This document shows positions 8,591 to 29,635 of a stretch of DNA of 64,000 bases, piece by piece. Made by a program: the position numbers and the translations under genes. The stretch lies in assembly GCA_037481695.1 (NCBI GenBank), contig JBBFLE010000001.1, positions 502,989-566,988 on the forward strand, in the 5' to 3' direction. The stretch comes from a bacterium (GTDB lineage: Bacteria; Desulfobacterota; Desulfocorpusculales; Desulfocorpusculum). Each line of letters starts with the position of its first letter. Position 1 is the stretch's first letter. The notes beneath the pieces are model-generated. The model had not been told where the DNA came from. It searched no databases and was given only the letters and a program-made list of their open reading frames with translations.

Positions 8591-9372
8591 TGTTGGGCCT
8601 TGGTAATGGCTGCCAGCATCATGGGCTTTAACCGCAACCCCTGATCTGATAAGAGCTAAGCTCTCCCCTGCCAGGCCTGTGTACACTTTAAGAAGTCCCT
8701 TCCATGCGTTTCACATTTTTGTTCTTGACAACCCGAGATCCTGTGGACTATGAAGTATTGACTTTTGGGCCATTCGTGATTCTTGTGGAATGGCTCCATC
8801 AGGGAAGTTGGCCCCGTCCTGTCCAGGGGATTACCAAGGTATATCAAGGAGAAGGGATGAGTGAAGATGGGGCCCTGATGGCAGCAAGACCGAAGGCCTC
8901 TTTCAAGGATCCACCAAGGCCTGCCTGGTGAGAAGCAGTCCGTGTCGGGCACCGTCGGTCTGAGAAAAGGCCCATCCAAAGAAGGGCATCCGAGCCTTGC
9001 TTCTGTCCCCCATCGTCACTGCCCATCGCCCTGAGATAGCCCCTTTTTATCTGAGGGGACTGGGACAGCGCCCCAGGCGCCTCGTCCCGGCCGGAAAATT
9101 GACTCACATCGTCGTTTCCTCTTTTTGACGGTCTTAACCAGACCCAGATGGAGGAGATGATGCTCTTCATGTTGTGTTGCCGCATCCTGGACTTTGTGAA
9201 GCCGGGAAAACACCCTTGTGCTTTGACTAAGCTAGGGTTTCTGTTCCAAAGAGGATACTTCCGTTCTTGGGTTTTAAGCGTGAACTTGTGGGAAAGGGCG
9301 GTCTTGCCCTCGCGGAACGCCTTTCGATTTTATGCACTTCAGGAACCACAGTGATTCTAAGGAGCTGAATTG
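8591..9372. other. Long intergenic region upstream of cas10
   Basis: About 780 bp carry no convincing gene on either strand; the open frames here lack ribosome sites and recognisable domains. It should contain the promoter of the csm operon, but I could not fix one with confidence. The last bases, AAGGAGCTGAATTG, are the ribosome site of cas10. Confidence 0.4.
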
Positions 9373-11892
9373 ATGTTGAAAGAAGATTTCACCAGGTTCG
9401 TCCTTGGAGCCCTGCTACACGATATTGGAAAATTCAAACAGAGGGCCAAATACGAGGAGGATCGCGGGAAAACTCACTCCGCGATAGGATACGAGTGGTT
9501 ATCCTCGCAATACGGCGAAGGGTTGATCGCGGCAGCAGCTCGAAATCACCACGGTAATGTATCTGAGACATGGGAGAGCAACCTCTCATTGATCATTTAT
9601 GAGGCAGATAACCTTGCCGCATCCGAGCGAAGGAGGTTCGATCCTTCCACGGATGTAGACAAATCATGGCATCAAGAAGTGCTTCTCGCCTCGGACTTTA
9701 GTCGAATAAGCCTGGACTCCGAAGCCCCCGATCTCCGAACTAAGCCGGAGATGAGATACTGGCCCCTCAAAGCCTTGGGTGGGTGGACTGTCCCCCAGGA
9801 GGACGACTCAGGCGGCTCTGCAGGCGTCTATCGAGAACTGTGGGAAGCTTTCTGCAATGACTTTGCCTGTCTTAAAGCCGCGAATAGGCACACGGACGTG
9901 GAGATCATGCTGCACCTGATGGAACGGTTTACCTCATACATCCCTTCTATCACCCTCCACATAACCGGAGCAACAGACCGTGACACCTTCAGGAAGCATC
10001 CAGATGTGTCGCTGTTCGACCACGCGCGGGTCACTGCCGCCTCTGCCAGTTGCCTTTACCTTTTTTACTACTCCCGCCTTCAGGATCGATGGGATCGAGA
10101 TGTCTTCAAAGACGAAATCACTGGTGGATGGGAAGATTCTTCTCAAGATCCCTTCCTCTTAATTGGTGGAGATCTGTCGGGCGTTCAGGACTTTATCTAC
10201 ACAATCTCGTCCAGGGGTGCACTCAAGGCGCTCAAGGGACGCTCTTTCTTCCTGGAGTTACTGACCGAGTACCTAGTGAGTAACCTCCTAGAAGAGTTGA
10301 GCCTGACCCGATGCAATGTTCTTTTCACAGGCGGTGGGCATTTCTACCTGCTCGCACCCAACACTGAGGATGCCAAGAACGGCCTCGACAGCGTCCGACG
10401 AGCAACCAACGATTACCTTTGGGATGCCTTTAATGGTGCATTGTCGTGTTGTATCGCTTATGTGCCCATGGGAAAAGCAGCCTTCCGGGATGCGACTCGG
10501 CACTGGGCGGCTCTGGGACAAGAACTCGAAACCATGAAGCGCAGAAAATGGGAGAAAGCCCTGGACAAGGTTCTGGGGCCGGCCGAGATGCCCCATGCTG
10601 ATTGCCTCACTGTAAGGTGCGAGGTTTGCGCGCGGGAGGATACGCCGCTGAAGTCAGTTAGGGGTGTGCTTATGTGCCCAAGCTGCCGGGAACAATTTTT
10701 CTTCGGCGAGGGCCTGCAAAAAGCGGCCAGGGAGGCTAACAAGCTCTTACGGGCCAAAGTGGGAATAGCGGTTTGGGACAAAAAACCCCAAACAGAAGGT
10801 GACGAAGTCCTAGCTATAGGCCTGGGCGAGAAACAAAGGTTTTACAAGCCCTTTGTGATTTACGACAGCCACAATTCCCTGCCAGGGACTAAGTGGACGT
10901 ACCGGCTTAACGATTGGGACAGTAGCGGCTACGCAGCCGAAGGTTCTCTTCCCCTCTTGGCAGGAATATTCCACGCAGGGGAGTTCGAGGACCTTGAGTC
11001 CCTCGTTGAGAGGGGCTATGGATGGGATAGGGCCGGGGTGCTTCGCATGGACGTTGACAGGCTCGGAAAGATATTTTCGTCTGGCCTGCCGCCTGGCGAC
11101 CGCACCTTCTCACGCATGGCATCTCTTTCGAGGCATTTCTCCCTTTTCTTCAAGTACCATCTCAACGGGATCTTGCACTTGGACAAAAAGGACGGATACG
11201 AGAATCTGGTACGGACACGGGTGGCGGAATCGGTTCGCGGGAGAGAACGTCTTTTGTCCTTGGTCTACTCCGGAGGCGATGATGTTTTCGTAATCGGACA
11301 TTGGTTGGACGTGTTGGAGGCAGCCTATGACATAGAGGAGGCTTTCAGCCTCATGACCTATAACCCCAACATTACCTTATCAGCAGGACTGGTTTTTGCA
11401 CCACCTCATCACCCGGTTTACAGATTCGCCAAAGACGCTGGAGAGGCCGAGGCCAAAGCCAAGAAAGGAGGGCGAAACTCTCTGACGGCATTCGGCCATA
11501 CCCTAAGGTGGCAAGATGCAAAGGATATGCGAACGATGCTTGTCGGAGAGATTTTACCTTTGCTGAAAAAGGAGCAAAGGGCATTGGGAACACCGGTAGG
11601 GTCTGTGTCCGTCGGATTTCTCCACAGAGTTTTGGCTTTGGTGAGCCCTTTTGTTACTCGAAATGAAAAAAAGACCGACCCGGCGTCACAGTTCTGGTTG
11701 CTGCCAAAGGTTGCCTACCTCACTGGTAGGGCCGCCCCTTCCAAAGAATTCCTCAAGGCGAGCGACGAAGCAAAGAAGGCCTGGATGGCCTTAAAAGACA
11801 GGCTCTTGCGCCAACCCGATTTACAGCACCTCACCAAGATAAACGGGGCCGTACTCTGGGCCCTGATGATGATGAGGAAAGGAGGGAAATAA
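9373..11892 (+). CDS. cas10: Type III-A CRISPR effector Cas10 (Csm1)
   Basis: The 839-residue large subunit of the Csm complex. The N-terminal HD nuclease domain is intact (LLHDIGKF, H16-D17; later ARNHHGN). The first palm-like domain is around residue 260 onward (LLIGGDLSGVQDFIY). A zinc ribbon C416-x2-C419 ... C435-x2-C438 follows. The second palm domain carries the cyclase motif GGDD at residues 634-637 (VYSGGDDVFVIG). Both activities, target-activated DNase and synthesis of cyclic oligoadenylates, are therefore predicted, and the two CARF nucleases downstream fit. I chose ATG 9373 with AAGGAG upstream rather than the adjacent TTG. It is the first gene of the operon and ends one base before csm2. 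Confidence 0.96.
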   Translation: MLKEDFTRFVLGALLHDIGKFKQRAKYEEDRGKTHSAIGYEWLSSQYGEGLIAAAARNHHGNVSETWESNLSLIIYEADNLAASERRRFDPSTDVDKSWHQEVLLASDFSRISLDSEAPDLRTKPEMRYWPLKALGGWTVPQEDDSGGSAGVYRELWEAFCNDFACLKAANRHTDVEIMLHLMERFTSYIPSITLHITGATDRDTFRKHPDVSLFDHARVTAASASCLYLFYYSRLQDRWDRDVFKDEITGGWEDSSQDPFLLIGGDLSGVQDFIYTISSRGALKALKGRSFFLELLTEYLVSNLLEELSLTRCNVLFTGGGHFYLLAPNTEDAKNGLDSVRRATNDYLWDAFNGALSCCIAYVPMGKAAFRDATRHWAALGQELETMKRRKWEKALDKVLGPAEMPHADCLTVRCEVCAREDTPLKSVRGVLMCPSCREQFFFGEGLQKAAREANKLLRAKVGIAVWDKKPQTEGDEVLAIGLGEKQRFYKPFVIYDSHNSLPGTKWTYRLNDWDSSGYAAEGSLPLLAGIFHAGEFEDLESLVERGYGWDRAGVLRMDVDRLGKIFSSGLPPGDRTFSRMASLSRHFSLFFKYHLNGILHLDKKDGYENLVRTRVAESVRGRERLLSLVYSGGDDVFVIGHWLDVLEAAYDIEEAFSLMTYNPNITLSAGLVFAPPHHPVYRFAKDAGEAEAKAKKGGRNSLTAFGHTLRWQDAKDMRTMLVGEILPLLKKEQRALGTPVGSVSVGFLHRVLALVSPFVTRNEKKTDPASQFWLLPKVAYLTGRAAPSKEFLKASDEAKKAWMALKDRLLRQPDLQHLTKINGAVLWALMMMRKGGK

Positions 11893-11893
11893 C

Positions 11894-12352
11894 ATGACAG
11901 CCATGGGAACCGGCGACTTCAAGACAGGGACCGGGGGCCGCGGCAAAGCCGAAAATGGCTCCCATGTGGACTGGACTGCTCAGCACGCCCGCGATCTCAA
12001 GGATCTCTCGACTATTGGAGCCGATAGAATAGTGGAGATTGCCGAGGCTGTGGGCAAACAGCTTTCCCCGAAGGGAATCAACTTGAAGATCAATCAGATC
12101 AGGCGGTTCCTGGACGAGGCCCGACAGATCGAACTTGAAGTCAAGAGGGGAGTTTTCCCTGCCGATAGAGTGGTCCTCCTACTCCCAAAACTGGCTTACG
12201 CCGCGGGGCGTGAGCAAAAGGTCAGAGATTTGATGAAGGTTCTAGACCCGGCCATACGTTCAGCTCGTGACTCGGCGGACAATTTCAAGAAGTTTTTGAG
12301 GTTGATAGAAGGCATAGTGGCGTACCATAGGTTTTACGGCGGGACAAACTAG
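11894..12352 (+). CDS. csm2: Csm complex small subunit Csm2
   Basis: The 152-residue all-helical small subunit of the type III-A complex. The diagnostic C-terminal part is clear: VVLLLPKLAYAAGREQKV and FKKFLRLIEGIVAYHRFYGG. The first 25 residues are Gly-rich and probably disordered. Csm2 is known to form the inner filament along the crRNA-target duplex. It starts one base after the cas10 stop, with AAAGGAGGG inside the end of cas10, so the two are probably translationally coupled. Confidence 0.93.
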   Translation: MTAMGTGDFKTGTGGRGKAENGSHVDWTAQHARDLKDLSTIGADRIVEIAEAVGKQLSPKGINLKINQIRRFLDEARQIELEVKRGVFPADRVVLLLPKLAYAAGREQKVRDLMKVLDPAIRSARDSADNFKKFLRLIEGIVAYHRFYGGTN

Positions 12353-12376
12353 AAGTGGTACTGGGGAGGATAAGCC

Positions 12377-13201
12377 ATGACTGATACCAATCAATATCGC
12401 AAGCTTTTGGGTAAAGTGGAACTTGTCGGAAATCTTGAGTGCCTAACTGGTTTGCATGTCGGTGCTTCTAAGGAAACTATGGAAATTGGAGCGCTTGACT
12501 CTCCTGTGGTCCGTGATCCGCTTACCCAGTGCCCTTACATACCCGGATCATCTCTCAAGGGAAAGCTTCGTGCTCTTCTCGAAAAGGCGGATCCAAATCT
12601 CATTCCGAATCGCCCAGGTGGAAGCGGAACGCGGCGACATGAGTGCGACGATTGGGAGCCCAAAGAAGGCAAGAGGGGCGTTCCCGGTGCGTTGCACTGT
12701 CCTGTCTGTCGCCTCTTTGGTTCCACGGGCCCTGGCGAAGGCAACAAAAATTATCCCGCCCGTCTCAAGGTCCGGGACCTGCATCTGCAGAACAAAGAGG
12801 AATTGGAAAAGATTGACACCGGATTGTATTTGACCGAGTGGAAATTCGAAAACGGAATAGATCGCATCACCTCCGCGGCCAATCCTCGCAACATAGAGCG
12901 GGTTCCACGCGGTGCCAGGTTCTCCTTTTCCATGGTTTACGACGTGGAGGACACCACTACCATGTCGGAAGACCTGGAAAACCTGGGTCTTGCCATTCGT
13001 CTTCTGCACGACGATTCGCTAGGAGGGCACGGCTCCAGAGGTTACGGTCAGGTCAGGTTAGAGTTCAGATGTCTCGAGGCCAAACGGATCGATCATTACC
13101 GCGGCGAAGGGGAAGCCCTGAGGAAAATAGAGCCGGGCGAGCTTGACAGCAAGACCATTGAAGAGCTCAAAGGATTCTTCTCTTCTGAAAACAGGGGGTG
13201 A
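12377..13201 (+). CDS. csm3: Csm complex backbone RAMP Csm3, target-RNA nuclease
   Basis: The 274-residue RAMP protein forms the Csm backbone and cuts target RNA at 6-nt intervals. The conserved N-terminus reads GLHVGASKETMEIGALD, then SPVVRDP and PYIPGSSLKGKLR. Asp41 aligns with the catalytic Asp33 of the Streptococcus thermophilus protein, so slicing activity should be intact. A Cys-containing insertion (CPVCRLFGS) and the Gly-rich loop GGHGSRGYGQVRL near the C-terminus are typical. GGGGAGG precedes the start. It is followed directly by csm4. Confidence 0.95.
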   Translation: MTDTNQYRKLLGKVELVGNLECLTGLHVGASKETMEIGALDSPVVRDPLTQCPYIPGSSLKGKLRALLEKADPNLIPNRPGGSGTRRHECDDWEPKEGKRGVPGALHCPVCRLFGSTGPGEGNKNYPARLKVRDLHLQNKEELEKIDTGLYLTEWKFENGIDRITSAANPRNIERVPRGARFSFSMVYDVEDTTTMSEDLENLGLAIRLLHDDSLGGHGSRGYGQVRLEFRCLEAKRIDHYRGEGEALRKIEPGELDSKTIEELKGFFSSENRG

Positions 13202-13206
13202 GCCCC

Positions 13207-14262
13207 ATGTCCGTGTACCTTTTCAGACTTCATTTCCTGGGCCCTGTCCACTTCGGGATGGCTGGCATAGACCTGGAAGCAACGCAGAGCACTCTTTCGT
13301 CTGACTCGCTCATTTCGGCAATTGTAAACGCATTCTTGCTGCTCGACGGACCGGAGGCTGCCGAAAAGGTCATTTCAGCCTTTTCATCTGATAAACCACC
13401 TTTTGTCCTGTCATCCCTTTTTCCATTCGGCCCGGACAAGGACAAGGCCGATCGCTATGCAGAAGCGCTGGTCCGCCCCTTGACTCCGCCTCCGGTTGGA
13501 GACTCGGAGACTCTTGGACGTTTCGGCAAGGACTTAAAGACCATCAATTACTTGCATCCTCAGGACTTTGCCGCCTGGATCTCGCAGCGACCCCTGGCAC
13601 CTCATGAGATCGAGTCTGTGGTATCCCGGGCCCGAGTTTTCACGGAGGGTTGGTGGAAACAGGAGACACGTCCTCGGGTAGCATTGGACAGAGAAAGCCA
13701 AAATAGCCCGGTCTGGTCCCAGGCAGCCACATGGTTTCAGAGAGAAGAGCGAGGCAAAAAGGGGGAAGTGCTAACTGTCGGATCAGGTCTTTACGGTCTG
13801 GTTCGTTTCGACGATGAGTCTTGGAAAGAAAGACTCGCCTCAGCCTTTCGCGTCCTGGGCGATACCGGCCTAGGGGGAGAGCGTACGTACGGCTTTGGCC
13901 TTTTCAAGTTCGGAGGATTTGAAACTCCCGGGGATCACTGGCGGGAGATCTTAAGCGGTGAAGGGAGGTTCAAGGTCTTGCTTTCCCTTTATTATCCAAG
14001 GCAAGAGGAGAGGAAATCTCTAGCCCAATCCCTGGTCGCTTGGGACTTCGTGGAGAAACGAGGATACGTTGTGAGCGGCCGCAACGCAACCACCATAAAG
14101 CGAAAGCGCGTTCGTATGCTCGTCGAAGGTAGCGTTTGTCGCCAGCCATTGAGAGGCGCGATGGTTGATGTAACACCAGAAAACGCCGTGGGCCTAGGGA
14201 TACCTCATCGCGTGTTTAGATGCGGTTTGGCATTTCTCGTCCCAGATGGAGAACGGATATGA
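13207..14262 (+). CDS. csm4: Csm complex 5'-handle-binding RAMP Csm4
   Basis: The 351-residue RAMP protein of the Csm4 family holds the 5' tag of the crRNA and contacts Cas10. N-terminal strand VYLFRLHFLGPVHFG, the segment TLSSDSLISAIVNAF, and the Gly-rich loop DTGLGGERTYGFGLFKFG (about residues 220-240) are diagnostic. I use ATG 13207, placed behind AGGGGGTGAG; a GTG at 13198 overlapping the csm3 stop is the alternative. It overlaps csm5 by ATGA. Confidence 0.93.
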   Translation: MSVYLFRLHFLGPVHFGMAGIDLEATQSTLSSDSLISAIVNAFLLLDGPEAAEKVISAFSSDKPPFVLSSLFPFGPDKDKADRYAEALVRPLTPPPVGDSETLGRFGKDLKTINYLHPQDFAAWISQRPLAPHEIESVVSRARVFTEGWWKQETRPRVALDRESQNSPVWSQAATWFQREERGKKGEVLTVGSGLYGLVRFDDESWKERLASAFRVLGDTGLGGERTYGFGLFKFGGFETPGDHWREILSGEGRFKVLLSLYYPRQEERKSLAQSLVAWDFVEKRGYVVSGRNATTIKRKRVRMLVEGSVCRQPLRGAMVDVTPENAVGLGIPHRVFRCGLAFLVPDGERI

Positions 14263-15854
14263 GTCTCGAAGCACTTATCCAGTCAGCCCCAAAAAAAGCT
14301 GACTTGAGAAACTCGCTATGCATGGACTTACACGTCATCAGCCCGATCCACATCGGCACAAGGGAAGGCCGTCTTGGGGCCACCGAGTTCGTTGCAGGTG
14401 GTGGAAAGGTGTACCTGATAGATGAGGACAGGCTCGGCCGTTTTCTGGTAAGTAAAAACCTCGTGGACGCATTCGTGCTAGAGGTTCGAAAAGGGCCCTT
14501 CCAGATGGCGCAGTTCCTTCAAAAAAATGCGAAACTCCGCATCCCAGAAGATCTACATATGGTCTGCTCCATGTCCATCCCTGGAGGAGACCCGAGCATG
14601 CAGGACTTCCGTCCGTTTACGAGGGATGGATCAGGGGCGATTTACATTCCAGGCACTTCACTCAAAGGGGTATTCAGGACAGCCATACTGTATCGACTGC
14701 TTAATCAGGATCTAGAGTTTCGCAAAAGTTCCAATTCGAGGATTGGACAGGATCCCGAGGGAGAAATAAACAAGAGGAGAAAATTCTATTCCGAGCAGTG
14801 GTTACAAAAAGAGCATTTGGAAAGCTTCGACTTGCCCGGAGGCAAAAAAGGGAGCCCAAACGTAGACATTCTGAGGTGTCTGACCGTCAGAGACGCTTAT
14901 CCCGTGGGACCTGTTCGCACCCAGGTGGTTCCAATCAAGTTCCTGTCACGTCTTTCTGATGGAACTTTTTACTGGAGCCAGGACAAGAAGCATTTTAAGG
15001 ATAAGGACCTTTCCATATGGGTTGAGTGTGTCACCGAGGGGACCTTTCGCCTTGAAATGCTCTGGGCTGCCGATCTTTACAAGGCTTTTATGAGTCATAA
15101 CAAAGGGGTAGCGTTTCCAGTTTCCAACCTGCAGGATGTCCTGGATGCTGTGCGAGAGATGAACGAAGCTCTGGTGAAGCACGAGTTGGCCTTTTACGGA
15201 TCAGCAACGGGGGGTGGGAATAGCGATGCACCTGGAGCAGCCAAAGCTTTGCTAGAATGGTATAAAACCCTCGGAAATCAAACCCTTCGCATTGGCTTCG
15301 GTTCGGGGATGCTTTCCACTACCGTGGGCTTGGCACTTGAAGAGAGCGTGCGGCAAAAGATTCGGGATGCCTGTGGAAGTGGACGACGCCCCGGGGATCC
15401 GGCACCCAAATCGAGAAGGGTCTGGAGACGAACGGAAAGCATTACTTTGCCTATGGGCTGGTTGAAACTGGCAAAGGCGGATCCGAAGTTAGGGCCCATC
15501 CCACCTGATCTGAGCTCGCTCTCCCGTGAGATTGGGAAGCCCACGGAGCAGACCGGGCATCCAGATGCACAAAGAGAAGGGCGGACGCAAGAGCTTCCCC
15601 CAGTGGAGCGTGTTAAGGTTGCTCCTTCGAAAGAGGTGTGGGAGCAGGCGGAAATTAGATGGGATCGAGGAAAGGACGAAGTCGCAGCCTTACGGGAAGG
15701 CAAGAAGGCGATCTGCAGGGGAAACGATCTCGATGAGGACAGTCGGCAGTTCATGCAACAACAGAAAAAGGGCAAACCATTCAAAGCGCGGGTCGTAGTG
15801 GAGGTACTGAGCGATAGTTACCGGAAGATCCTCAAGCTCGAGCCTACAGAGTGA
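14259..15854 (+). CDS. csm5: Csm complex RAMP Csm5 (3' end cap)
   Basis: The 531-residue RAMP protein caps the crRNA 3' end of the Csm complex. Motifs: LHVISPIHIGTREG at the N-terminus, VYLIDEDRLGRFL, then YIPGTSLKGVFRTAILYRLL (around residue 130), and a loop IGFGSGMLSTTVGLAL. It is longer than many Csm5 proteins because of a charged C-terminal extension (from about residue 420). The start ATG overlaps the csm4 stop as ATGA, giving translational coupling. Confidence 0.93.
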   Translation: MSLEALIQSAPKKADLRNSLCMDLHVISPIHIGTREGRLGATEFVAGGGKVYLIDEDRLGRFLVSKNLVDAFVLEVRKGPFQMAQFLQKNAKLRIPEDLHMVCSMSIPGGDPSMQDFRPFTRDGSGAIYIPGTSLKGVFRTAILYRLLNQDLEFRKSSNSRIGQDPEGEINKRRKFYSEQWLQKEHLESFDLPGGKKGSPNVDILRCLTVRDAYPVGPVRTQVVPIKFLSRLSDGTFYWSQDKKHFKDKDLSIWVECVTEGTFRLEMLWAADLYKAFMSHNKGVAFPVSNLQDVLDAVREMNEALVKHELAFYGSATGGGNSDAPGAAKALLEWYKTLGNQTLRIGFGSGMLSTTVGLALEESVRQKIRDACGSGRRPGDPAPKSRRVWRRTESITLPMGWLKLAKADPKLGPIPPDLSSLSREIGKPTEQTGHPDAQREGRTQELPPVERVKVAPSKEVWEQAEIRWDRGKDEVAALREGKKAICRGNDLDEDSRQFMQQQKKGKPFKARVVVEVLSDSYRKILKLEPTE

Positions 15855-15933: not shown

Positions 15934-17205
15934 ATGAAGACTGTCCTCATTTGCACGGTGGGTGGGTCCCATCAGCCGATTGTCCAAAGCATAACGCGAA
16001 ACAAGCCAGACTTCGTGCACTTTATCTGCTCAGAGGACAGCGGGAAGGCAAAGGGGAGCTACACCCAGGTGGTTGACCCAGGCAAGGTGCTAAAGAGCGA
16101 CCCCAACCTAAAAGATCCGGACCTTCCAAACATCGTGGAGATCACTGGTCTTGAAGAGGATAATTACAGAGTACATCGAATCCGGGCCTTCGATGATCTG
16201 AACGAGTGCTATCTCTTTGCCCTCAAGTTGATAGAAGAGATCCATGAGATGAACCCCGATGCCCGGATAATAGCCGATTACACAGGCGGCACGAAAAGCA
16301 TGACGGCTGGTCTGGCGGCAGCCGCTCTGGACGACGGACGATGCGAGATTCAACTGGTGACCGGGCTTCGGCAAAATCTTAACAAGGTTTCCGACAGGAC
16401 AGAGTTTGTTCGTCCTGTTAGGGTTTGGGACACCCAAGTCACCAGGCGCATGAAGGTTGCAAAGGAACTATTGTCACGCTTTGACTATGCGGGGGCAGCA
16501 AGCATCCTAGAAGATGCAGCCGCACGCTTTGCCAGTGATAACACCATCGAGACGCTGCAGCGCTGGCTTGCCCTTTGCCGGGCCTTTGACTCTTGGGACA
16601 GCTTCGATCATGCCACGGCCAGAAATCTTCTTCAGCCTTTCCGGAAGAATTTCGTGCACCACGCTCGTTTTCTCGACGCCATTGTGAAGGGCAAGGGGGC
16701 CCACGGATTCGAGTGGGTTGAGGACTTGCTCCTTAACTCAGATCGGCGGGCTGTGCAGGGACGGTTCGACGATGCCGTCGGGCGCTTGTACAGAGCGCTA
16801 GAGCTGACCGCACAGGTCTGGTTGCGCCTGCGCCACGGTATCGACACAGGCTCTGTGGAGCTCGATAAGGTGCCTGACTCCGTAAAAGAGAGCGTCAAGA
16901 AGCACAGCGATGAGAAGGGAATCATCAGAATTGGCCTAGTGCAAGCCTGGGAGGTCATCGCAGCCTGCGCTGACGACCCACTTTGCTTACTCTTCAAGGA
17001 AAAGCAAGGCGTGCTGCTGGACTTCCTGAGGCTACGCAACTATTCCCTGTTTGCCCACGGCACCACTCCTATTGGGGAGAGGCAGTACCGTGAACACGCC
17101 CCCCTTGTCCAGAGCTTCATCCGTTGTTCGGTCGAAAAAGCCGTGATGAGCTTGCGAAAGAAGAGCGCATCATCCCCACCGCAGTTCCCGACAGAATGGG
17201 ATTGA
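15934..17205 (+). CDS. CARF-HEPN ribonuclease, TIGR02710 / Csm6-Csx1 type
   Basis: The 423-residue accessory nuclease has an N-terminal CARF sensor domain (MKTVLICTVGGSHQPIV; ligand-loop motif ADYTGGTKSM at residues 114-123) and a C-terminal HEPN domain with R368-x6-H375 (RNYSLFAH), within the R-x4-6-H RNase pattern. Such proteins are known to be activated by cyclic oligoadenylate made by Cas10 and then degrade RNA nonspecifically. It lies 79 bp after csm5 in the same direction. The ribosome site is weak, so expression may be low. Which ring size it senses cannot be read from sequence. Confidence 0.9.
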   Translation: MKTVLICTVGGSHQPIVQSITRNKPDFVHFICSEDSGKAKGSYTQVVDPGKVLKSDPNLKDPDLPNIVEITGLEEDNYRVHRIRAFDDLNECYLFALKLIEEIHEMNPDARIIADYTGGTKSMTAGLAAAALDDGRCEIQLVTGLRQNLNKVSDRTEFVRPVRVWDTQVTRRMKVAKELLSRFDYAGAASILEDAAARFASDNTIETLQRWLALCRAFDSWDSFDHATARNLLQPFRKNFVHHARFLDAIVKGKGAHGFEWVEDLLLNSDRRAVQGRFDDAVGRLYRALELTAQVWLRLRHGIDTGSVELDKVPDSVKESVKKHSDEKGIIRIGLVQAWEVIAACADDPLCLLFKEKQGVLLDFLRLRNYSLFAHGTTPIGERQYREHAPLVQSFIRCSVEKAVMSLRKKSASSPPQFPTEWD

Positions 17206-17239: not shown

Positions 17240-17293
17240 CTCCTCAAAAACCGAAAAGGCGACAAACCACACCCTGCCAGGGTGACTGAGGAG
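17240..17293. other. Nested inverted repeats between csm6-like gene and MNT-HEPN pair 2
   Basis: A perfect palindrome, CACCCTGCCAGGGTG (17270-17284), sits inside an outer inverted repeat, CTCCTCA (17240) and TGAGGAG (17287). It could end the csm transcript or serve as operator for the following toxin-antitoxin pair. There is no T-run. Confidence 0.45.
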
Positions 17294-20124: not shown

Positions 20125-20152
20125 TGAATGAGAGGCTGAAGTCTCTCATTCA
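20125..20152. terminator. Bidirectional hairpin between csx2-like and cas6 genes
   Basis: TGAATGAGAG and CTCTCATTCA form a perfect 10-bp stem between the two convergent genes. Its right arm overlaps the stop codon of the minus-strand cas6 gene. Confidence 0.6.
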
Positions 20153-21058
20153 CATGTGCTGGCCTTCTGCTGAGATGATCTCATAGCGCCCCAGCCCCAG
20201 TGCCGTCCCCTTCCCTACCCCCAGATCCCTTCCCAGTGCCAAAAGCTCCCCAAAGGGCTGCAAATCACCCTCAAGAAGCATTTCTCCCAGCAAGCCGCTT
20301 AGAGCGACCGTAGTATTCTGTCTTCTGGAGCAGTGATGCCGCTCAACCCATCTAAGTCCCAAAGAATCAGACGCTACCTTTGAAGCCATTTCCAAGAGTC
20401 CTTGGAAGGAAAGGGGTTCTCCTTTTCCATAATATTTGTCCAGTAATTTGGCCCTTCGGCAAAGGGCTTCCACGAGCCCCCTGAAGCTCAGTTTCGTCTG
20501 AGGCCTGCCCAGGCTGAAGATTCTCCCCGGCCTTATCCACCTCAGCTTTGTAACCCCTTTCAATACCAGTGGCTCTGGACGTCTAGGCAAGACCGCTCTC
20601 TCCAATGCATCCTGCTCTCCATCATAAAATGCCTTCCATTCCTTCCCGGTCCATTCCTCTCCTAATATTATCTTGAAAGGATGAGCTTTGTTCTTACCCA
20701 TCAGATTCAAGGCAAAAAGCCAGTAAGGCAATCTGTCCACCCAGGGATCGAGAAGTGTTAGCTCTAGCTCGAACTTCCCTGATCCATTACTTTGCTGCGG
20801 GAGCAAAAGCGAGAAAGGCAAAGGAATCTGAGTGCCTCCCCAATCTCCCTGGACGCCTCTCAAATCTGGTTTAAACAAGCCCGTATAAATACACTTCTGT
20901 AACAAGAAGCATTCGCCGCATTCCTGCCTTGGAAGGATGCAGGCAACCTTTTTCAGGGCCATTTCCAGATCATCCCTCCAATGAAGGGGTGATCTGATGC
21001 GTCTTTCCTCTTCCAACCACTGTGCCCTGAACCTGAGCCTTGCATAAAGTAACATCAC
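20150..21058 (-). CDS. cas6: Cas6-like pre-crRNA endoribonuclease, copy B
   Basis: The 302-residue RAMP protein matches the Cas6 C-terminal family (PF10040 type). It has an N-terminal LLYARLRFRAQW strand, a four-Cys segment (ILPRQECGECFLLQKCIY) near residue 40-58, and the C-terminal Gly-rich loop LGVGKGTALGLGRYEI. Cas6 cuts within CRISPR repeats to give crRNAs with an 8-nt tag, here predicted to be ATTGCGAC. It overlaps the upstream Cas6-like gene by 4 bp (ATGA), so both come from one message. Which copy is catalytic cannot be decided from sequence. Confidence 0.82.
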   Translation of the reverse strand: MMLLYARLRFRAQWLEEERRIRSPLHWRDDLEMALKKVACILPRQECGECFLLQKCIYTGLFKPDLRGVQGDWGGTQIPLPFSLLLPQQSNGSGKFELELTLLDPWVDRLPYWLFALNLMGKNKAHPFKIILGEEWTGKEWKAFYDGEQDALERAVLPRRPEPLVLKGVTKLRWIRPGRIFSLGRPQTKLSFRGLVEALCRRAKLLDKYYGKGEPLSFQGLLEMASKVASDSLGLRWVERHHCSRRQNTTVALSGLLGEMLLEGDLQPFGELLALGRDLGVGKGTALGLGRYEIISAEGQHM

Positions 21059-21990
21059 CCTTCGTCCAGCAACAGCTTTCCACAGCCTACAACCGTGTTC
21101 TTTCCCACATGAATGAACCTTCCCAGTCTAAGCAATGCCCCAGCCTCCTGGTTGTAATCCTTGACCTCCAGTTTGCCGACCCATCCACCAATGTTGATCC
21201 TCTGCCCTTGAGTCTTAGAGGGTCTTTCCAGAACAACCCATCGCACCTCACCGGCCCCTGTTTGAAGCCAGGGCTTCTTCTTCCAGCAGGACTCACTTCT
21301 GCCCTCTTCAGAGCTACCGTAAAAATAATGGAGACCTGCTATCCTCCTCTCAAGGGCATCTATTATGAGCCTGCCATCCGGGCGGCCTTTGATCCTTCCT
21401 TCCTCCTTGAATTTGCAAGGAGTGGCCAGACGGATGCTCCTTATTGGTTTGCCCCCACCGACTAGATCAGCGGCATCCCAGCTCCTGAGGCCATTTATTC
21501 CCTTCTCCGCCCAAGCCCTAGGATCCGAAGCCTCTGACGGCGGCTCGGGAAATTCCAGCTCAAACCTGGATCTTTTAGTTCCCAGGACTCCTCTGTGGCC
21601 GCCTTGGACTATTGCAGCCATGACAAATGGGAGCCATTTCACCCCTGAGCCAAAAACGTTCAAAGAAAACTCCATCCGATCTCCCCTGGAGAAGCATGTC
21701 CTCGGGTCAATCGCTGGTTCTGTAACAAAAGGTGTAGGAGCGCTCTTACCCTTTGACAAATGGGGTTTGAAGAAGTTGGCGTAAGGGCATTGCGAAACAA
21801 GGCTGCAGCTGAAACACGCTTCTTCCCCCTTAGGGCACCACCGCCTCAACATGCTGGTCCCAAGAAGTCCCCTGATGGTGGAGCCCTTGTAGGAAGGCAG
21901 CAAGGCATCATCTAGGAGTCTAATTTTGAATTCAAGTTTACTGATTCTTAGACCCGTGTGTGGGAAATCCATTTCTTTTTCCAAAGACAT
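21055..21990 (-). CDS. cas6: Cas6-like pre-crRNA endoribonuclease, copy A
   Basis: The 311-residue RAMP protein has the same layout as copy B: LRISKLEFKIRLLDDALLPSYKGSTIRGLLG at the N-terminus, a four-Cys segment (CPKGEEACFSCSLVSQCPYANFFKP), and the Gly-rich loop LGRFIHVGKNTVVGCGKLLL. The two copies are clearly paralogous but far apart. I chose ATG 21990, which has GAAGGAG upstream; earlier ATGs at 22005 and 22035 are less well placed. It is divergent from the TPR gene, with a 183-bp shared promoter region. Confidence 0.83.
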   Translation of the reverse strand: MSLEKEMDFPHTGLRISKLEFKIRLLDDALLPSYKGSTIRGLLGTSMLRRWCPKGEEACFSCSLVSQCPYANFFKPHLSKGKSAPTPFVTEPAIDPRTCFSRGDRMEFSLNVFGSGVKWLPFVMAAIVQGGHRGVLGTKRSRFELEFPEPPSEASDPRAWAEKGINGLRSWDAADLVGGGKPIRSIRLATPCKFKEEGRIKGRPDGRLIIDALERRIAGLHYFYGSSEEGRSESCWKKKPWLQTGAGEVRWVVLERPSKTQGQRINIGGWVGKLEVKDYNQEAGALLRLGRFIHVGKNTVVGCGKLLLDEG

Positions 21991-22173
21991 AGTTGCTCCT
22001 TCCATTTTCACGCTTTCTTTGTTGCCCCTATTCATGGAAAACGGATTTGCTCCTTTGTGTTCCGAGTTTTTTCCACCGGAAAATTCTCTGCTTTCTTCGT
22101 TTCATTTTTTTGTCAGGGCCAAACCGTCCAGGCTTGGTACTACAGAAAGAGAAACAGAAAGGAGTCCCAACCC

Positions 22174-23569: not shown

Positions 23570-25150
23570 ATGAATATAACAGAGATCTCCTCTTCTCGAC
23601 CGATAGTCTTTCTCTTGAAAAAAGCTGAACATGCTTTTTTTCAAGGTGATCACCAGAGGGCTGCCTTTCTTCTGGACAATGTGAGAGCTAAAAGAGAAGC
23701 CTCTCCACAGCAGTGGATGGCGTGTGGGCGTTTGAACGAGATGTTGGGAAGACCTGAAGAAGCCTTGAGTGACTATGCCCAGGCTTTGAAACTCGTGCCG
23801 GGTAACACTGAAATAATATTGAGGCGGGCCAGGATCCTTTTGGAGTTGGGAAGGGTCGGGGAAGCCAAACGGGAGGTAAAAGCTACGCTGGCTAGAGGCG
23901 TCACAGTGGATCAGGTGAAACTCTTCCTGGGGGATCTGCTCAAGAGACCTTGCCCTCCCAATGACCTTTCCCCTGTGGAAATTGACCGGGCCTTCTATCA
24001 GAGCAAAGGGCGAAAAAAGACCATAGACAGATTCCTAAAGTTGTTCAGAGGAAGGCCTGGGGCTTATGCCAGGCAGTGGTTCGATCCCAGGAGCGGTAAA
24101 TCAGGATATTTCCCTGTCTTGGAACCCCTTACACCAGAGGTTGTGGAGGCGCACCTTCAGGGCAAAATCACTGTTGGGGTCTATCTGTTGGACCAAGCGG
24201 CCAGAGTTTGCTTTGCGGCACTGGACTTGGACCTAGGAAGAGACACAATAGCCGAGATAATGAAGGATCCTGGTGGGCAAAAAAGCATGGCTTCGGCCAT
24301 GAGAGATTTGATGGCAAAGATCTTAAAGGCCTCGGCCGAGCTTGGGCTTCCGGTGGCATTCGAAAGAAGCGGTTACAAGGGAGTGCACGCCTGGTATTTC
24401 TTCGAGACTCCTGTGCCGGCCTGGGCTGCAAAAACCCTCATGATGCGGCTCGGGGAAGCGGTTTCCCCACCACCGCACGGAATACAATTGGAGGTTTTTC
24501 CAAAACAGGTGACATTGTCGGGAAAAGGTTATGGAAACTTGATTAAGCTACCTTTGGGTGTTCACAGGGTCACTGGGAAGAAAAGTATTTTCTTGGACGA
24601 GAAAGGATATCCGGTGGAGGACTCTCTGAACTACCTTATGGAGATAAAAACCATACCGGCCGAACTCGTGGTCTCTTTGGCAAGCAAATTGGGCGCCGGG
24701 GAGAAAGGCACTGTTGTGCTTTTGCCAGGTACCGGCATCCCCAGGCAGGTTGAAGTGAAGGCCAGCAGAGCTCCCCAGAGCAGTGTGAGCAACAGCAGCA
24801 AGGAGGCCTACGCCAGAATATTGGAAGGCTGTGCCATGATCCGATACTTGGTTAGAAAGGCTCGCGAGTTCAAACATCTCAGTTTTGACGAGCGCAAAGT
24901 GGTCTTGGGAGTGTTAGGACACCTTCCAGGAGGTCAGAAACTTGTACACCACGTAATATCCCGTTGCGCTGATTACGACCCACAGATCACCGGACATTTC
25001 ATATCTCGAATGTCCAGGTCTCCCCTCGGATGCAGGAACATAAGAAGGAGGCTTTTTTATTTACAACACACCAGATGTAGCTGCCAGTTCAATCTTCGTG
25101 GCAAGGGTTACCCTACCCCTTTGCTTCTTGTGCAACAGGAGGGGCAATGA
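23570..25150 (+). CDS. CRISPR-associated primase-polymerase (CAPP), TPR-AEP-Cys
   Basis: The 526-residue protein has N-terminal TPR helices (about 10-130), then an archaeo-eukaryotic primase domain with the metal motif ALDLDLG (D219, D221), the SxxxxxH-type motif S267-GYKGV-H273 and the third motif LEVFPKQ followed by GNLIKLPLGVHR. The C-terminal part has four cysteines (C421, C488, C503, C505), an arrangement suggestive of the Fe-S domain of primase large subunits. CAPPs are known to be encoded with cas1-cas2 in some type III systems and can prime and extend DNA and RNA, supporting spacer acquisition. Here it directly precedes cas1 and cas2. Confidence 0.88.
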   Translation: MNITEISSSRPIVFLLKKAEHAFFQGDHQRAAFLLDNVRAKREASPQQWMACGRLNEMLGRPEEALSDYAQALKLVPGNTEIILRRARILLELGRVGEAKREVKATLARGVTVDQVKLFLGDLLKRPCPPNDLSPVEIDRAFYQSKGRKKTIDRFLKLFRGRPGAYARQWFDPRSGKSGYFPVLEPLTPEVVEAHLQGKITVGVYLLDQAARVCFAALDLDLGRDTIAEIMKDPGGQKSMASAMRDLMAKILKASAELGLPVAFERSGYKGVHAWYFFETPVPAWAAKTLMMRLGEAVSPPPHGIQLEVFPKQVTLSGKGYGNLIKLPLGVHRVTGKKSIFLDEKGYPVEDSLNYLMEIKTIPAELVVSLASKLGAGEKGTVVLLPGTGIPRQVEVKASRAPQSSVSNSSKEAYARILEGCAMIRYLVRKAREFKHLSFDERKVVLGVLGHLPGGQKLVHHVISRCADYDPQITGHFISRMSRSPLGCRNIRRRLFYLQHTRCSCQFNLRGKGYPTPLLLVQQEGQ

Positions 25151-25190
25151 TCCCTGATACAATGTGATCGTCATAGGTAAAGGAGATAAG

Positions 25191-26237
25191 ATGCACACGG
25201 CTTATATTGTCGAGCAGGGCTGCCATCTGCACAAAGACGGGAACAGACTGGTGGTGCGAAGAGGAAAGGAAATCCTGCGGGAGCTCCTACTGGAAGGTCT
25301 TCAGCAACTGGTGCTCATGGGGAACATAATACTCTCCCCGCCTGTCATGGATGTGCTCATCAAGAACCGGGTTGACACGGTTTTCCTAACGCAAAAGGGA
25401 CGGTTCAGGGGACGTCTCATGACTTCCTACACCAAAAACGTCACACTGAGGCAGGCTCAATATACTAAATTACAGGACGCAGAGTTCGTTCGGCGGGTTG
25501 CCTCAACCATAGTAGCCGGAAAGTTGCAAAACATGTATCTCCTGCTTCTCAGGTACAATCGGAGGTTAAGGGATGAGGGCATAGGCTCTGCTGCCGCATC
25601 CATCCGAGCTTTGAGGGAGAGGCTAGAAGAGGCTAATAGCTTGGAGGTTATACGCGGTATAGAGGGTGCAGCCTCCAGAAACTACTTTGGTGTGTTTGGC
25701 CGTCTTCTCACAGCTGAGGGTATGGAGTTCAGGGGCCGTAATCGAAGACCGCCCTTGGATCCGGTAAATGCCCTTCTTTCATTTGGTTACACAATGCTGG
25801 CCAACCTGCTGGAGAACCAGATCAATGTCGTGGGACTGGATCCATATCTTGGCGCTCTTCATGAGACAGAGTACGGCCGTCCCTCCCTGGTGTGCGATCT
25901 AATGGAAGAGTACCGTCCTGTTTTCACTGACACTCTGGTTATAACCTTGGTGAATCGGAAAGTAATCGGGAGGCAGGACTTCGTATACAGAGATGTGCCA
26001 GACACTTCCTACCAGACCGAGGAAGAACTTAAAGAAAAACGCCCGGTAGAGATGAAACCCGAGGTGATGAAGGGCTTCATAGAGATCTTTGAACGAAAGC
26101 TGGAGACTCGGATCCAAGATCCTGAAACTGGCAACCAGGTAACTTATAGGTATCTGGTGGAGCTGCAAGTACGGAGGTTCGCGAGGCTCATTTTGGGAGA
26201 GGTTGAGGGCTACGTCCCTTTTGAATGGAGCAGATGA
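25191..26237 (+). CDS. cas1: CRISPR integrase Cas1
   Basis: The 348-residue integrase has all three metal-binding residues: E158 (GIEGAASRNYFG), H224 (YLGALHETEYGRPS) and E239 with D236 (VCDLMEEYRP). The N-terminal beta domain and C-terminal helical domain are complete, and there is no fused reverse transcriptase. ATG 25191 has AAAGGAGATAAG immediately upstream. It overlaps cas2 by 4 bp. Confidence 0.96.
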   Translation: MHTAYIVEQGCHLHKDGNRLVVRRGKEILRELLLEGLQQLVLMGNIILSPPVMDVLIKNRVDTVFLTQKGRFRGRLMTSYTKNVTLRQAQYTKLQDAEFVRRVASTIVAGKLQNMYLLLLRYNRRLRDEGIGSAAASIRALRERLEEANSLEVIRGIEGAASRNYFGVFGRLLTAEGMEFRGRNRRPPLDPVNALLSFGYTMLANLLENQINVVGLDPYLGALHETEYGRPSLVCDLMEEYRPVFTDTLVITLVNRKVIGRQDFVYRDVPDTSYQTEEELKEKRPVEMKPEVMKGFIEIFERKLETRIQDPETGNQVTYRYLVELQVRRFARLILGEVEGYVPFEWSR

Positions 26238-26515
26238 TGTTTTGTGTTATATGTTTTGACATAGCAGATGACAAAGTCCGCTACAGGGTGGTCAAGGAGC
26301 TTAAGGCCGTTGCGCACAGGGTACAGAAGTCGGTCTTTGAGTGCCCGGATCTTCAGGAAAAAAGGTTTCTGAAGTTAAAGGCTCGTTTGGAGAAGCTCAT
26401 AGATCTTTCCTACGATACCGTAAGATATTACTTTCTATGCCAGGGATGTGTAGCAAGGACCGAGATTTCCGGAACAGGGGTACTGACCGAAGATGAATCC
26501 TTTATTGTAGTTTGA
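26234..26515 (+). CDS. cas2: CRISPR adaptation protein Cas2
   Basis: The 93-residue ferredoxin-like protein has the family hallmarks CFDIADDKVRYRVVKEL and RVQKSVFECPDL. It bridges Cas1 dimers in the spacer-integration complex. The ATG at 26234 overlaps the cas1 stop as ATGA; ATG 26225 is an alternative that would add three residues. It is followed by the leader and array. Confidence 0.94.
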   Translation: MMFCVICFDIADDKVRYRVVKELKAVAHRVQKSVFECPDLQEKRFLKLKARLEKLIDLSYDTVRYYFLCQGCVARTEISGTGVLTEDESFIVV

Positions 26516-26854
26516 CGCACGAGGGTTGTCCGAGCTCAAGTTCTGGATTGGGAGTTCCAGATTACTTGACAGATAAATAGGTAGCATCTAGAGTGACTAT
26601 CGAGGTAGCCATGGGTGCATTAGTAAACCTGTGGTGGATTTTTCAACATTGAATTATCTAGTTGATTTAATTGAGTTTTACCTAAAAGGGCTCCGAGAGG
26701 TTTACTAATGACAAAAAACTGTGTATTTTTAGTAAGTTATCCTATGTGTCCTACAAATTTGTATGATAAGTTTGACCTTGTCTGGGGCAAAATTGGGAGG
26801 TTTACTAATCGCCGCCTCCAAACCCGCACCAGCACTGAGCTCGTACGGGGTGCT
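26516..26854 (+). promoter_or_regulatory. CRISPR leader
   Basis: This 339-bp stretch between cas2 and the first repeat has no gene and is AT-rich in its middle part. It carries a 12-bp motif AGGTTTACTAAT at 26698-26709 and 26798-26809, and the inverse ATTAGTAAACCT at 26619-26630. The two direct copies are exactly 100 bp apart. The position next to cas1-cas2 and the first repeat identifies it as the leader. Confidence 0.75.
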
Positions 26855-27403
26855 GTCCGAAGATAGCCCCGATCACAAAGGGGATTGCGACCAGATCCCT
26901 CACGCAGATTCACTTTCCAATCCATCCTGTCCGAAGATAGCCCCGATCACAAAGGGGATTGCGACTTAGCTAGCCCACTAGTCTCTAGTGGGCTAGCTTT
27001 GTGTCCGAAGATAGCCCCGATCACAAAGGGGATTGCGACCTGCCACAGAATCCACAGGGATTTTGAGTTACTGGAGTCCGAAGATAGCCCCGATCACAAA
27101 GGGGATTGCGACATGGGAGCCCTAGATCGGAGGAGGGACCATTCTCTTGAGTCCGAAGATAGCCCCGATCACAAAGGGGATTGCGACAAGGGGTGCTCAT
27201 AAAAAGACAACCCCCGCCCCAGTCCGAAGATAGCCCCGATCACAAAGGGGATTGCGACCCCTTGCCTGTTTTCTTTCCTCCACCCAAGATCTCGTCCGAA
27301 GATAGCCCCGATCACAAAGGGGATTGCGACAAGGATCTGATCTTCAAAATTATCAGGCAAGTCTGCGTCCGAAGATAGCCCCGATCACAAAGGGGATTGC
27401 GAC
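26855..27403 (+). CRISPR. Type III-A CRISPR array, 8 repeats, 7 spacers
   Basis: Eight identical 37-bp repeats begin GTCCGAAGATAGCCCC and end GGGGATTGCGAC, at 26855, 26929, 27003, 27076, 27151, 27222, 27294 and 27367. Spacers are 37, 37, 36, 38, 34, 35 and 36 bp. The repeat can form a short GCCCC/GGGG stem, and its last 8 nt ATTGCGAC resemble known type III 5' tags. Spacer 2 (26966-27002) is a near-perfect hairpin. The array is transcribed from the leader on the left and runs into a satellite with truncated repeats on the right. Confidence 0.97.
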
Positions 27404-27629
27404 CCTGGGGCTTCGCCCGCACAGAGCACGGAGCACAGAGCACAGGGTAAAAACCGAACTACTGGCGGGCTGCTCCACCGGCTCATTTCCTGGCGCACGC
27501 ACCGGCACCTCGCTCCGGATCCTGGCCAAAGGCCTTCGGGAAACTTCCTACACGAACCTTGGCCCGTATGCTCTGTGCCCTGTGCCCTGTGCCGCTTTTG
27601 CTGGCCCCGATCACAAAGGGGATTGCGAC
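27404..27629 (+). repeat. Satellite unit 1 ending in truncated CRISPR repeat
   Basis: This 226-bp unit directly follows the last full repeat. It begins CTGGGGCTTCGCCC, carries GCACAGAGCACGGAGCACAG on the left and an opposed CTCTGTGCCCTGTGCC on the right, and ends in the last 26 bp of the CRISPR repeat (27604-27629). The first 11 bp of that repeat are missing. Open frames through it are repeats of low-complexity reading and not credible genes. Confidence 0.85.
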
Positions 27630-27888
27630 CCTGGGGCTTCGCCCGCACAGAGCACGGAGCACAGAGCACAGGGTAAAGACCAAACTACTGGCGGGCTCGT
27701 CCACCGGCTCATTCCCTGGCGCACGCACCGGCACCTCGCTCCGGATCCTGGCCAAAGGCCTTCAGGAAACTTCTTACACGAACCTTGGTCCGTATGCTCT
27801 GTGCTATATGCCCCTTTTGGTCGCCCCGTGCCCTGTGCTCTGTGCCGCTTCTGCTAGCCCTGTGCTGCCTTTCTCGGCCCCGATCACA
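27630..27888 (+). repeat. Satellite unit 2, degenerate right end
   Basis: This is a longer copy of unit 1 with an extra segment (TATATGCCCCTTTTGGTCGC and a second GCTTCTGCTAGCCC). It ends with only 12 bp of the CRISPR repeat (GCCCCGATCACA, 27877-27888) before diverging into the sequence upstream of the Cys-rich gene. Confidence 0.8.
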
Positions 27889-27985
27889 GAGATCATTAGG
27901 ACCGGAGTTCCTGGTAAACCATGCGAGGAAAGGATAAGTCAATTTAGACAAATTTCTTTGATTCCATTACGCAAGGAGGTGTGAG

Positions 27986-28471
27986 ATGAGGGGTCTGGTC
28001 GTTTTCTTGATGGTTACAGGATTGGTGGTGGGCTCTGTAGCAATCTTACCCTTAGGCCAGGCAGCTAGCAGGAACCCCGAGTGCGTCCAGGAAGCTCAAG
28101 ACCAATACAGGGAGTGCATAGCCGTCTGTCGCGAGACCATGCAGGTGGAAAAGGACCTTTGTCGGAGTGTGGACCATGAGTGCGCTGAAAGCTGTAGAGA
28201 AGCCTTCATCAACTGTATTGGACCTCATATAGCGGCGCTTGAAACCTGTAAGGACACCTGCAACGCTGAAAGACAGCAGGCTGTCCAGCAGTGTAGAAAT
28301 CAACACGCTTCCAACCCGGCCTCTTTGGACGATTGTGTCGACCAGGCCCAGGTCCAGGCTTTCATGTGCAGAGATCAGTGCCGGGAACAGACTCAGCTAC
28401 GTGCCTCTCTAATCCAATGCAGGCGGCAGCTCAGATCCTGCATCCAGGCCTGCCCTACAGACACTCAGTAA
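27986..28471 (+). CDS. Secreted cysteine-rich helical protein
   Basis: The 161-residue protein has a signal peptide (VVFLMVTGLVVGSVAILPLGQAA) and a mature part with 16 cysteines. Ten of them form five C-x3-C pairs: CIAVC, CAESC, CKDTC, CRDQC and CIQAC, spaced along amphipathic helices rich in Gln, Glu and Arg, like helix-hairpin C-x3-C proteins. Disulfide-bonded periplasmic helices or a metal-binding role are both possible; I do not recognise the family. A strong AAGGAGGTGTGAG ribosome site precedes the ATG. The gene is embedded inside the CRISPR-derived satellite, between unit 2 and the next copies. Confidence 0.8.
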   Translation: MRGLVVFLMVTGLVVGSVAILPLGQAASRNPECVQEAQDQYRECIAVCRETMQVEKDLCRSVDHECAESCREAFINCIGPHIAALETCKDTCNAERQQAVQQCRNQHASNPASLDDCVDQAQVQAFMCRDQCREQTQLRASLIQCRRQLRSCIQACPTDTQ

Positions 28472-28490
28472 AATCTCTAAGGTAGAGCCG

Positions 28491-28531
28491 GTTCCGAAAG
28501 CAGGCCCCGACACCGAGCGGGGCCTTCCGAC
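28491..28531 (+). repeat. Diverged CRISPR-repeat-like sequence with GC stem
   Basis: This 41-nt sequence starts GTTCCGAAAGCAGGCCCCGA and ends GGGGCCTTCCGAC. It follows the array repeat position by position (TCCGAA, CCCCGA, CAC, GGGG, CGAC) with a longer stem, AGGCCCCG/CGGGGCCT (28502-28525). It sits where a repeat would precede the next satellite unit. It may also act as a terminator for the Cys-rich gene. Confidence 0.5.
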
Positions 28532-28729
28532 CGGCTGATCTCCTGGCATTAATACTGGCATATCTCTCCAGCCTCTAGCCAAAGGCCTTCAGGAAACTTC
28601 TTACACGAACCTTGGTCCGTATGCTCTGTGCTATATGCCCCTTTTGGTCGCCCCGTGCCCTGTGCTCTGTGCCGCTTCTGCTAGCCCTGTGCTGCTTCTG
28701 CTAGCCCCGATCACAAAGGGGATTGCGAC
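28532..28729 (+). repeat. Satellite unit 3 (diverged left half)
   Basis: The left half is a diverged version of the unit (GGCTGATCTCCTGGCATTAA); the right half, from CCAAAGGCCTTCAGG onward, is nearly identical to unit 2. It ends with 28 bp of the CRISPR repeat (28702-28729). Confidence 0.8.
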
Positions 28730-28955
28730 CCTGGGGCTTCGCCCGCACAGAGCACGGAGCACAGAGCACAGGGTAAAAACCGAACTACTGGCGGGCTGCT
28801 CCACCGGCTCATTTCCTGGCGCACGCACCGGCACCTCGCTCCGGATCCTGGCCAAAGGCCTTCAGGAAACTTCCTACACGAACCTTGGCCCGTATGCTCT
28901 GTGCCCTGTGCCCTGTGCCGCTTTTGCTGGCCCCGATCACAAAGGGGATTGCGAC
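28730..28955 (+). repeat. Satellite unit 4 (226 bp)
   Basis: This copy is almost identical to unit 1 and of the same 226-bp length. It ends with the 26-bp truncated CRISPR repeat at 28930-28955. Confidence 0.85.
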
Positions 28956-29227
28956 CCTGGGCTTCGCCCGCACAGAGCACGGAGCACAGAGCACAGGGTA
29001 AAGACCAAACTACTGGCGGGCTGCTCCACCGGCTCATTTCCTGGCGAACGCACCGGCACCTCGCTCCGGATCCTGGCCAAAGGCCTTCAGGAAACTTCTT
29101 ACACGAACCTTGGTCCGTATGCTCTGTGCTATATGCCCCTTTTGGTCGCCCCGTGCCCTGTGCTCTGTGCCGCTTCTGCTAGCCCTGTGCTGCTTCTGCT
29201 AGCCCCGATCACAAAGGGGATTGCGAC
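28956..29227 (+). repeat. Satellite unit 5 (272 bp)
   Basis: This is a long-form copy like unit 2, ending with 28 bp of the CRISPR repeat (29200-29227). Long and short forms differ by the segment between TATGCTCTGTGC and the final GCTAGCCCC. Confidence 0.85.
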
Positions 29228-29451
29228 CCTGGGGCTTCGCCCGCACAGAGCACGGAGCACAGAGCACAGGGTAAAAACCAAACTACTGGCAGGCTGCTCC
29301 ACCGGCTCATTTCCTGGCGCACGCACCAGCATCTAGCTTCGGATCCTGGCCAAAGGCCTTCAGGAAACTTCTTACACGAACCTTGGCCCGTATGCCCTGT
29401 GCTCTGTGCTCTGTGCCCTGTGCCCTGTGCCGCTTTTGCTGGCCCCGATCA
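29228..29451 (+). repeat. Satellite unit 6 (terminal, degenerate)
   Basis: This last copy ends in only 10 bp of the CRISPR repeat (GCCCCGATCA, 29442-29451), then runs into unique AT-rich sequence. It marks the right edge of the satellite. Confidence 0.8.
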
Positions 29452-29635
29452 GAAAAATTTTTACAACCGGAAAAAAGACGCAGATATGCGTTTAAAATAT
29501 ATGGATCTGGAGATAGTATCCATTTACATCGGTATGGTGGCCTGGACACCCAGAGGGGCTTTAGGGGTTTCGTTCTGGAGAGAAGGCTCTCCCCATTTAA
29601 GAGGTGTCAGGCTCTTGAGGAAGGTGGTGCAGACA

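Follow-up and report, generated by a model that had tools for sequence, protein, structure and literature searches.

How can a CRISPR array give way, behind its last full repeat, to a satellite of units of about 200-270 bp, each of which closes with a copy of the repeat lacking its 5' end? The case lies in the window, i.e. the whole 64,000-nucleotide stretch of DNA analysed here, which contains a type III-A CRISPR-Cas locus with cas10/csm1 to csm5 together with cas6, cas1 and cas2 near an array, termed array B, whose full repeat is GTCCGAAGATAGCCCCGATCACAAAGGGGATTGCGAC (37 nt). The parts of this locus are as follows.

9370-15854, + strand: cas10/csm1, csm2, csm3, csm4 and csm5 (type III-A)
20150-22035, - strand (opposite to the csm genes): pair of adjacent, different cas6-like genes
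25164-26515, + strand: cas1 and cas2
26516-26854, + strand: leader of array B, sharing 97% identity with the array A leader (see below) over its last 100 bp
26855-27403, + strand: CRISPR array B, 8 full perfect 37-nt repeats and 7 spacers

Two further features of the locus are recorded here in their own right. Directly upstream of cas1, at window positions 23570-25150, a TPR protein is encoded that carries an AEP-TOTE family primase domain. Six of the 20 spacers in arrays A and B contain an inverted repeat of at least 6 bp, where 0.9 would be expected from shuffled sequences (window 26966-27002; L031:16435-16470, 16508-16542, 16654-16691, 16877-16911 and 17246-17282); spacer 2 of array B, in the window, is a perfect 14-bp hairpin, and such hairpin-rich spacers may have their origin in the terminators of phage transcripts.

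The satellite occupies positions 27404-29467, directly behind the last full repeat, and its units close with the last 26-28 nt of the 37-nt repeat, four of these copies being exact and two decayed.

27404-27603, + strand: trailer unit B1, directly after an intact repeat
27604-27629, + strand: clipped repeat, exact, 26 nt
27630-27876, + strand: trailer unit B2
27877-27902, + strand: clipped repeat, decayed, matching the repeat at 20 of 26 positions
27986-28471, + strand: 161-aa cysteine-rich ORF between units B2 and B3, no Pfam match
28528-28701, + strand: partial unit B3, diverged on the left and, from 28578 onward, identical to B5
28702-28729, + strand: clipped repeat, exact, 28 nt
28730-28929, + strand: trailer unit B4, differing from B1 at one base
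28930-28955, + strand: clipped repeat, exact, 26 nt
28956-29199, + strand: trailer unit B5
29200-29227, + strand: clipped repeat, exact, 28 nt
29228-29441, + strand: trailer unit B6
29442-29467, + strand: clipped repeat, decayed, matching the repeat at 18 of 26 positions

Much of this had been proposed by a sequence-only reading of the window, which placed 5'-truncated repeats behind the array. Its coordinates for the exact 3' parts (27604, 28702, 28930 and 29200) are right, the repeat lacks its first 9-11 nt in every case, as it had said, and the opposed GCACAGAGC and GCTCTGTGC-type arms that it described are present in the units. Its count of six units needs amendment, five being whole and the third only partial, with the 161-aa ORF breaking the series; the two ends which it took to be only 10-12 bp long really extend over 26 nt but are decayed. 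This ORF lies in about 0.6 kb of unrelated DNA that splits units B2 and B3; a relative 61% identical to its product occurs in G001, which belongs to another genus of the same family, in unrelated surroundings that gave no date for the interruption. When the whole 4.1-Mb genome was searched for the repeat (25 nt, up to 3 mismatches), matches were confined to two arrays with their trailers and a single orphan, and the same search with the repeat reversed as a control returned no matches, so the clipped repeats are not due to chance.

The second of these arrays, array A (C1:501324-502319), lies 28 kb upstream, just outside the window, and comprises 14 full repeats identical in type to those of array B. 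Its leader-distal end reads repeat, unit, one exact clipped repeat, unit, trailer, and thus has the same joint as the satellite at a separate locus. This bears on the explanation that the tandem copies are an artefact of assembly. The genome is a draft in 52 contigs, and its exact stretches of up to 204 bp could confuse assembly from short reads. Against that stand not only array A but also the divergence of most units by several percent and the unique gene that breaks the series, and we regard an artefact as highly improbable, though the copy number of the satellite may be off by one or two.

The arrangement of intact and clipped repeats provides the first clue to origin. Unit B1 follows an intact repeat, and behind the units stand clipped repeats only; neither trailer holds the opening 11 nt of the repeat on the + strand, even when 2 mismatches are allowed. 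The sequence-only reading had supposed that a small mobile sequence inserted in a repeat, and this is not supported, since the 5' part that such an event would have split off is absent beside and inside the units. The joint itself, TGCTTCTGCTAGCCCCGATC (CTGC-TAGCCC-CGATC), retains the hexamer TAGCCC, which is nt 10-15 of the repeat, and its unjoined partner CTGCTAGCCCTGTGC persists in the last unit of array A, where the unjoined sequence GCTTCTGCTAGCCCTGTGC forms the end of that unit; the same motif occurs inside several B units. A short match of 6 nt, TAGCCC, is therefore common to both parental sites, and both sites are visible at array A, the full repeat before the block and CTGCTAGCCCTGTGC behind it. 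Of all repeat x trailer breakpoint pairs, only 0.25% have six bases in common. A duplication between the two hexamers predicts the order full repeat, unit, clipped repeat, unit, trailer, which is exactly that of array A. At array B the original unjoined site is not seen, because the distal end there is a decayed clipped repeat.

We therefore favour, with a probability of roughly two in three, the reading that the satellite is the array's own trailer, tandemly duplicated at a microhomology and then reshuffled by recombination. The ancestral trailer would have held a copy of a dispersed minisatellite, GCACAGAG, with long opposed arms, and an error of replication or repair, which we infer was provoked by these hairpin-forming arms, would have fused the TAGCCC of the trailer (CTGC-TAGCCC-TGTGC) to that of the last repeat (GTCCGAAGA-TAGCCC-CGATC, nt 10-15). 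A single join of this kind would yield a full repeat, the trailer, a repeat without its first 9-11 nt, and the trailer again. The clipped repeats could next have provided the homology on which unequal recombination and gene conversion acted, both within the locus and with the sister array, raising the copy number and creating mosaics.

For this later phase, array B appears further advanced than array A. Units B1 and B4 are one base apart (99.5% alike), B3 is a mosaic, a 204-bp stretch spanning unit, clipped repeat and unit recurs exactly within the satellite, and the left arm is invariant among whole units. The earlier proposal that the satellite multiplied by recombination is borne out by the mosaic units and the exact 204-bp match, and unequal recombination would account for the mosaics of array B in an order of events that can only be put forward tentatively. 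Exchange between the loci is suggested by the way in which similarity is distributed: the leaders of arrays A and B are about 97% identical over the 100 bp adjoining the first repeat and less alike beyond, while unit A1 is identical to B1 over the first 44 bp, after which 56 of 121 core positions differ (46%; the core is about 54% alike). Identity thus drops away from the repeats at both array ends, as expected if recombination or conversion spreads from the repeats; selection is an alternative explanation for the conserved stretches next to them.

Three observations sit less easily with tandem duplication of the trailer. The core of A1 is 46% different, yet its first 44 bp are unchanged, so simple duplication is insufficient and has to be supplemented by conversion or selection. 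Three joints read CTGGCCCC and not CTAGCCCC, which calls for a mutation or else for another join, at a match of 5 nt. The third observation concerns the orphan of the genome-wide search, GCGCCGATCACAAAGGCGATCGCGAC (L035:1004-1160; G000:C2:263503), which lies outside any array, is followed by a unit-like start, and shares the truncation point of the clipped repeats, a hint that the joined module is able to travel. It has 3 mismatches to the repeat in the last 26 nt and 7 mismatches in the 11 nt before these, and two of its changes compensate each other in the stem (CCCC/GGGG to CGCC/GGCG). Since it starts where the clipped repeats start, it could represent a copy of that module, and it is the strongest point for mobility.

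Mobility could also have come first, if a small MITE-like element with opposed arms had entered the last repeat, or landed beside it, before recombination between repeats multiplied it. In favour of such an element, the opposed arms reach 41 nt, arms of the same family occur at about ten other places in the genome, the motif adjoins the end of a third, unrelated array, and the orphan on C2 shares the truncation point. The 5' part of the split repeat is, however, missing everywhere, and the trailers do not contain a split target with both repeat halves; the unit core is confined to the two CRISPR trailers and does not occur in the dispersed loci, which are tandem minisatellites with a 27/54-bp period and no common end. 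The arms in the units are likewise minisatellite-like and lie within the unit at a distance of 15 bp from its left border, and no whole copies were found elsewhere in the genome, only the one partial orphan on C2. On this balance we consider an inserted element unlikely.

The arms do connect the satellite to a wider family. They belong to the dispersed GCACAGAG minisatellite (27/54-bp period, about ten places in the genome), a motif absent from 117 other genomes of the phylum. The third array of the genome, at L135:12011-19130 (G000:C7), has an unrelated repeat, 96 repeats by 16-mer count, and the type I genes cas3, cas7, cas6 and cas1; its last repeat is altered at the 3' end, and the GCACAGAG minisatellite starts 3 bp after it, so that all three arrays of this genome end in the same family. 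The chance of two independent array ends falling within 20 bp of a GCACAGAG locus is near 1e-7, a rough estimate in which ten loci are placed at random in non-coding DNA and the amounts of non-coding DNA are assumed; at such a value chance explains the minisatellite at array ends poorly and the association looks real. A broader proposal, that the GCACAGAG minisatellite is drawn to leader-distal CRISPR ends generally and can carry off a clipped repeat as a module, is compatible with all three arrays of this genome, which have two unrelated repeat types, and with the C2 orphan, and we hold it to be distinctly unlikely; if true, it would make CRISPR ends the targets or sources of a non-coding mobile sequence. 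Separately, two loci 9 kb apart, L140:2380-2760 and L139:1100-1500 (G000:C7), have several hundred bp in common around the GCACAGAG minisatellite (TTTACCCAAAA...GCTTTGAGC...GGTGCCAGGCAC), which indicates that a longer repeated sequence carries the motif.

Considering whether the satellite serves a purpose, the clipped repeats keep both the stem and the predicted 8-nt crRNA tag, ATTGCGAC, as the sequence-only reading had stated. It may be imagined that Cas6 cuts each clipped repeat, releasing RNAs of about 226-273 nt that bear the tag ATTGCGAC and are then trimmed to a short guide. Type III-A crRNAs are usually trimmed at the 3' end, and after such trimming only the first 30-45 nt would matter, which is the part identical between the two loci; this is suggestive. 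The 4-bp CCCC/GGGG stem and the tag are exact in five clipped repeats (four in B and one in A), two cas6-like genes are present, and the 44 bp conserved after the tag between A1 and B1, in contrast to their diverged core, are close to guide length. Conversion from the repeats explains this identical stretch equally well, however, and the leaders fall off in the same manner; predicted stem formation varies as it does in full repeats, from 0.13 to 0.94, and two of the six clipped repeats of array B are decayed. A source of guide RNAs therefore seems very unlikely to us, and the satellite is probably without dedicated function.

The repeat was not found elsewhere by exact pattern in collections of genome contigs and viral contigs, nor, with up to 2 mismatches, in 394 other genomes of the phylum; an Rfam search gave no match, and the unit, which the sequence-only reading had proposed to look for in related genomes, was found only in its own genome when three of the order were searched. 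Two relatives with a similar cas1, G019 and G002, have repeats that also end in GGGATTGCGAC: the array of G019 has no clipped repeat within 3 kb, and that of G002 extends to the end of its contig.

Among known systems, repeat-spacer units are duplicated and deleted via recombination or replication misalignment between CRISPR repeats (PMC8047081), and the present case is similar in that copy number changes at a CRISPR locus, the repeats act as homology and their boundaries are kept, but differs in that it is the downstream flank that is duplicated, in units of 200-270 bp, with the first joint inside a repeat. CRISPR arrays also have a degenerate terminal repeat and a conserved trailer, the terminal repeat usually being altered at its 3' end and the trailer of S. 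agalactiae being strictly conserved (PMC8047081, PMC4466440). The third array here has such an ordinary, 3'-altered terminal repeat; arrays A and B resemble these cases in their altered leader-distal repeats and non-coding trailer, whereas in their clipped repeats it is the 5' end that is missing, the 3' end is exact and several copies are present, and the trailer is tandemly repeated, unlike that of S. agalactiae. Bacterial minisatellites and VNTR loci provide mosaic tandem copies, and the arms here come from a dispersed 27/54-bp family, but each unit carries a piece of CRISPR repeat and the copies are located at array ends. The insertion of IS elements or MITEs in CRISPR loci, for example of an IS in cas genes (PMC10359306), similarly places repeated sequence next to an array, though here there is no transposase, no 5' half of a split repeat and no visible target-site duplication. 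Repeat-spacer duplication and terminal-repeat degeneration are thus known already; no case of tandem clipped repeats at trailers, or of minisatellites adjoining arrays, was met in the literature covered, which comprised titles and abstracts together with PMC8047081 and PMC4466440.

The locus illustrates one way in which the trailer end of a CRISPR array, commonly portrayed as the stable one, becomes a growing satellite. The repeat pieces within it may still be processed, and they make it possible to test in a natural setting whether cutting occurs in a repeat that has lost its first 9-11 nt. With one minisatellite family at all three array ends of this genome, events at CRISPR trailers become testable by the comparison of strains.
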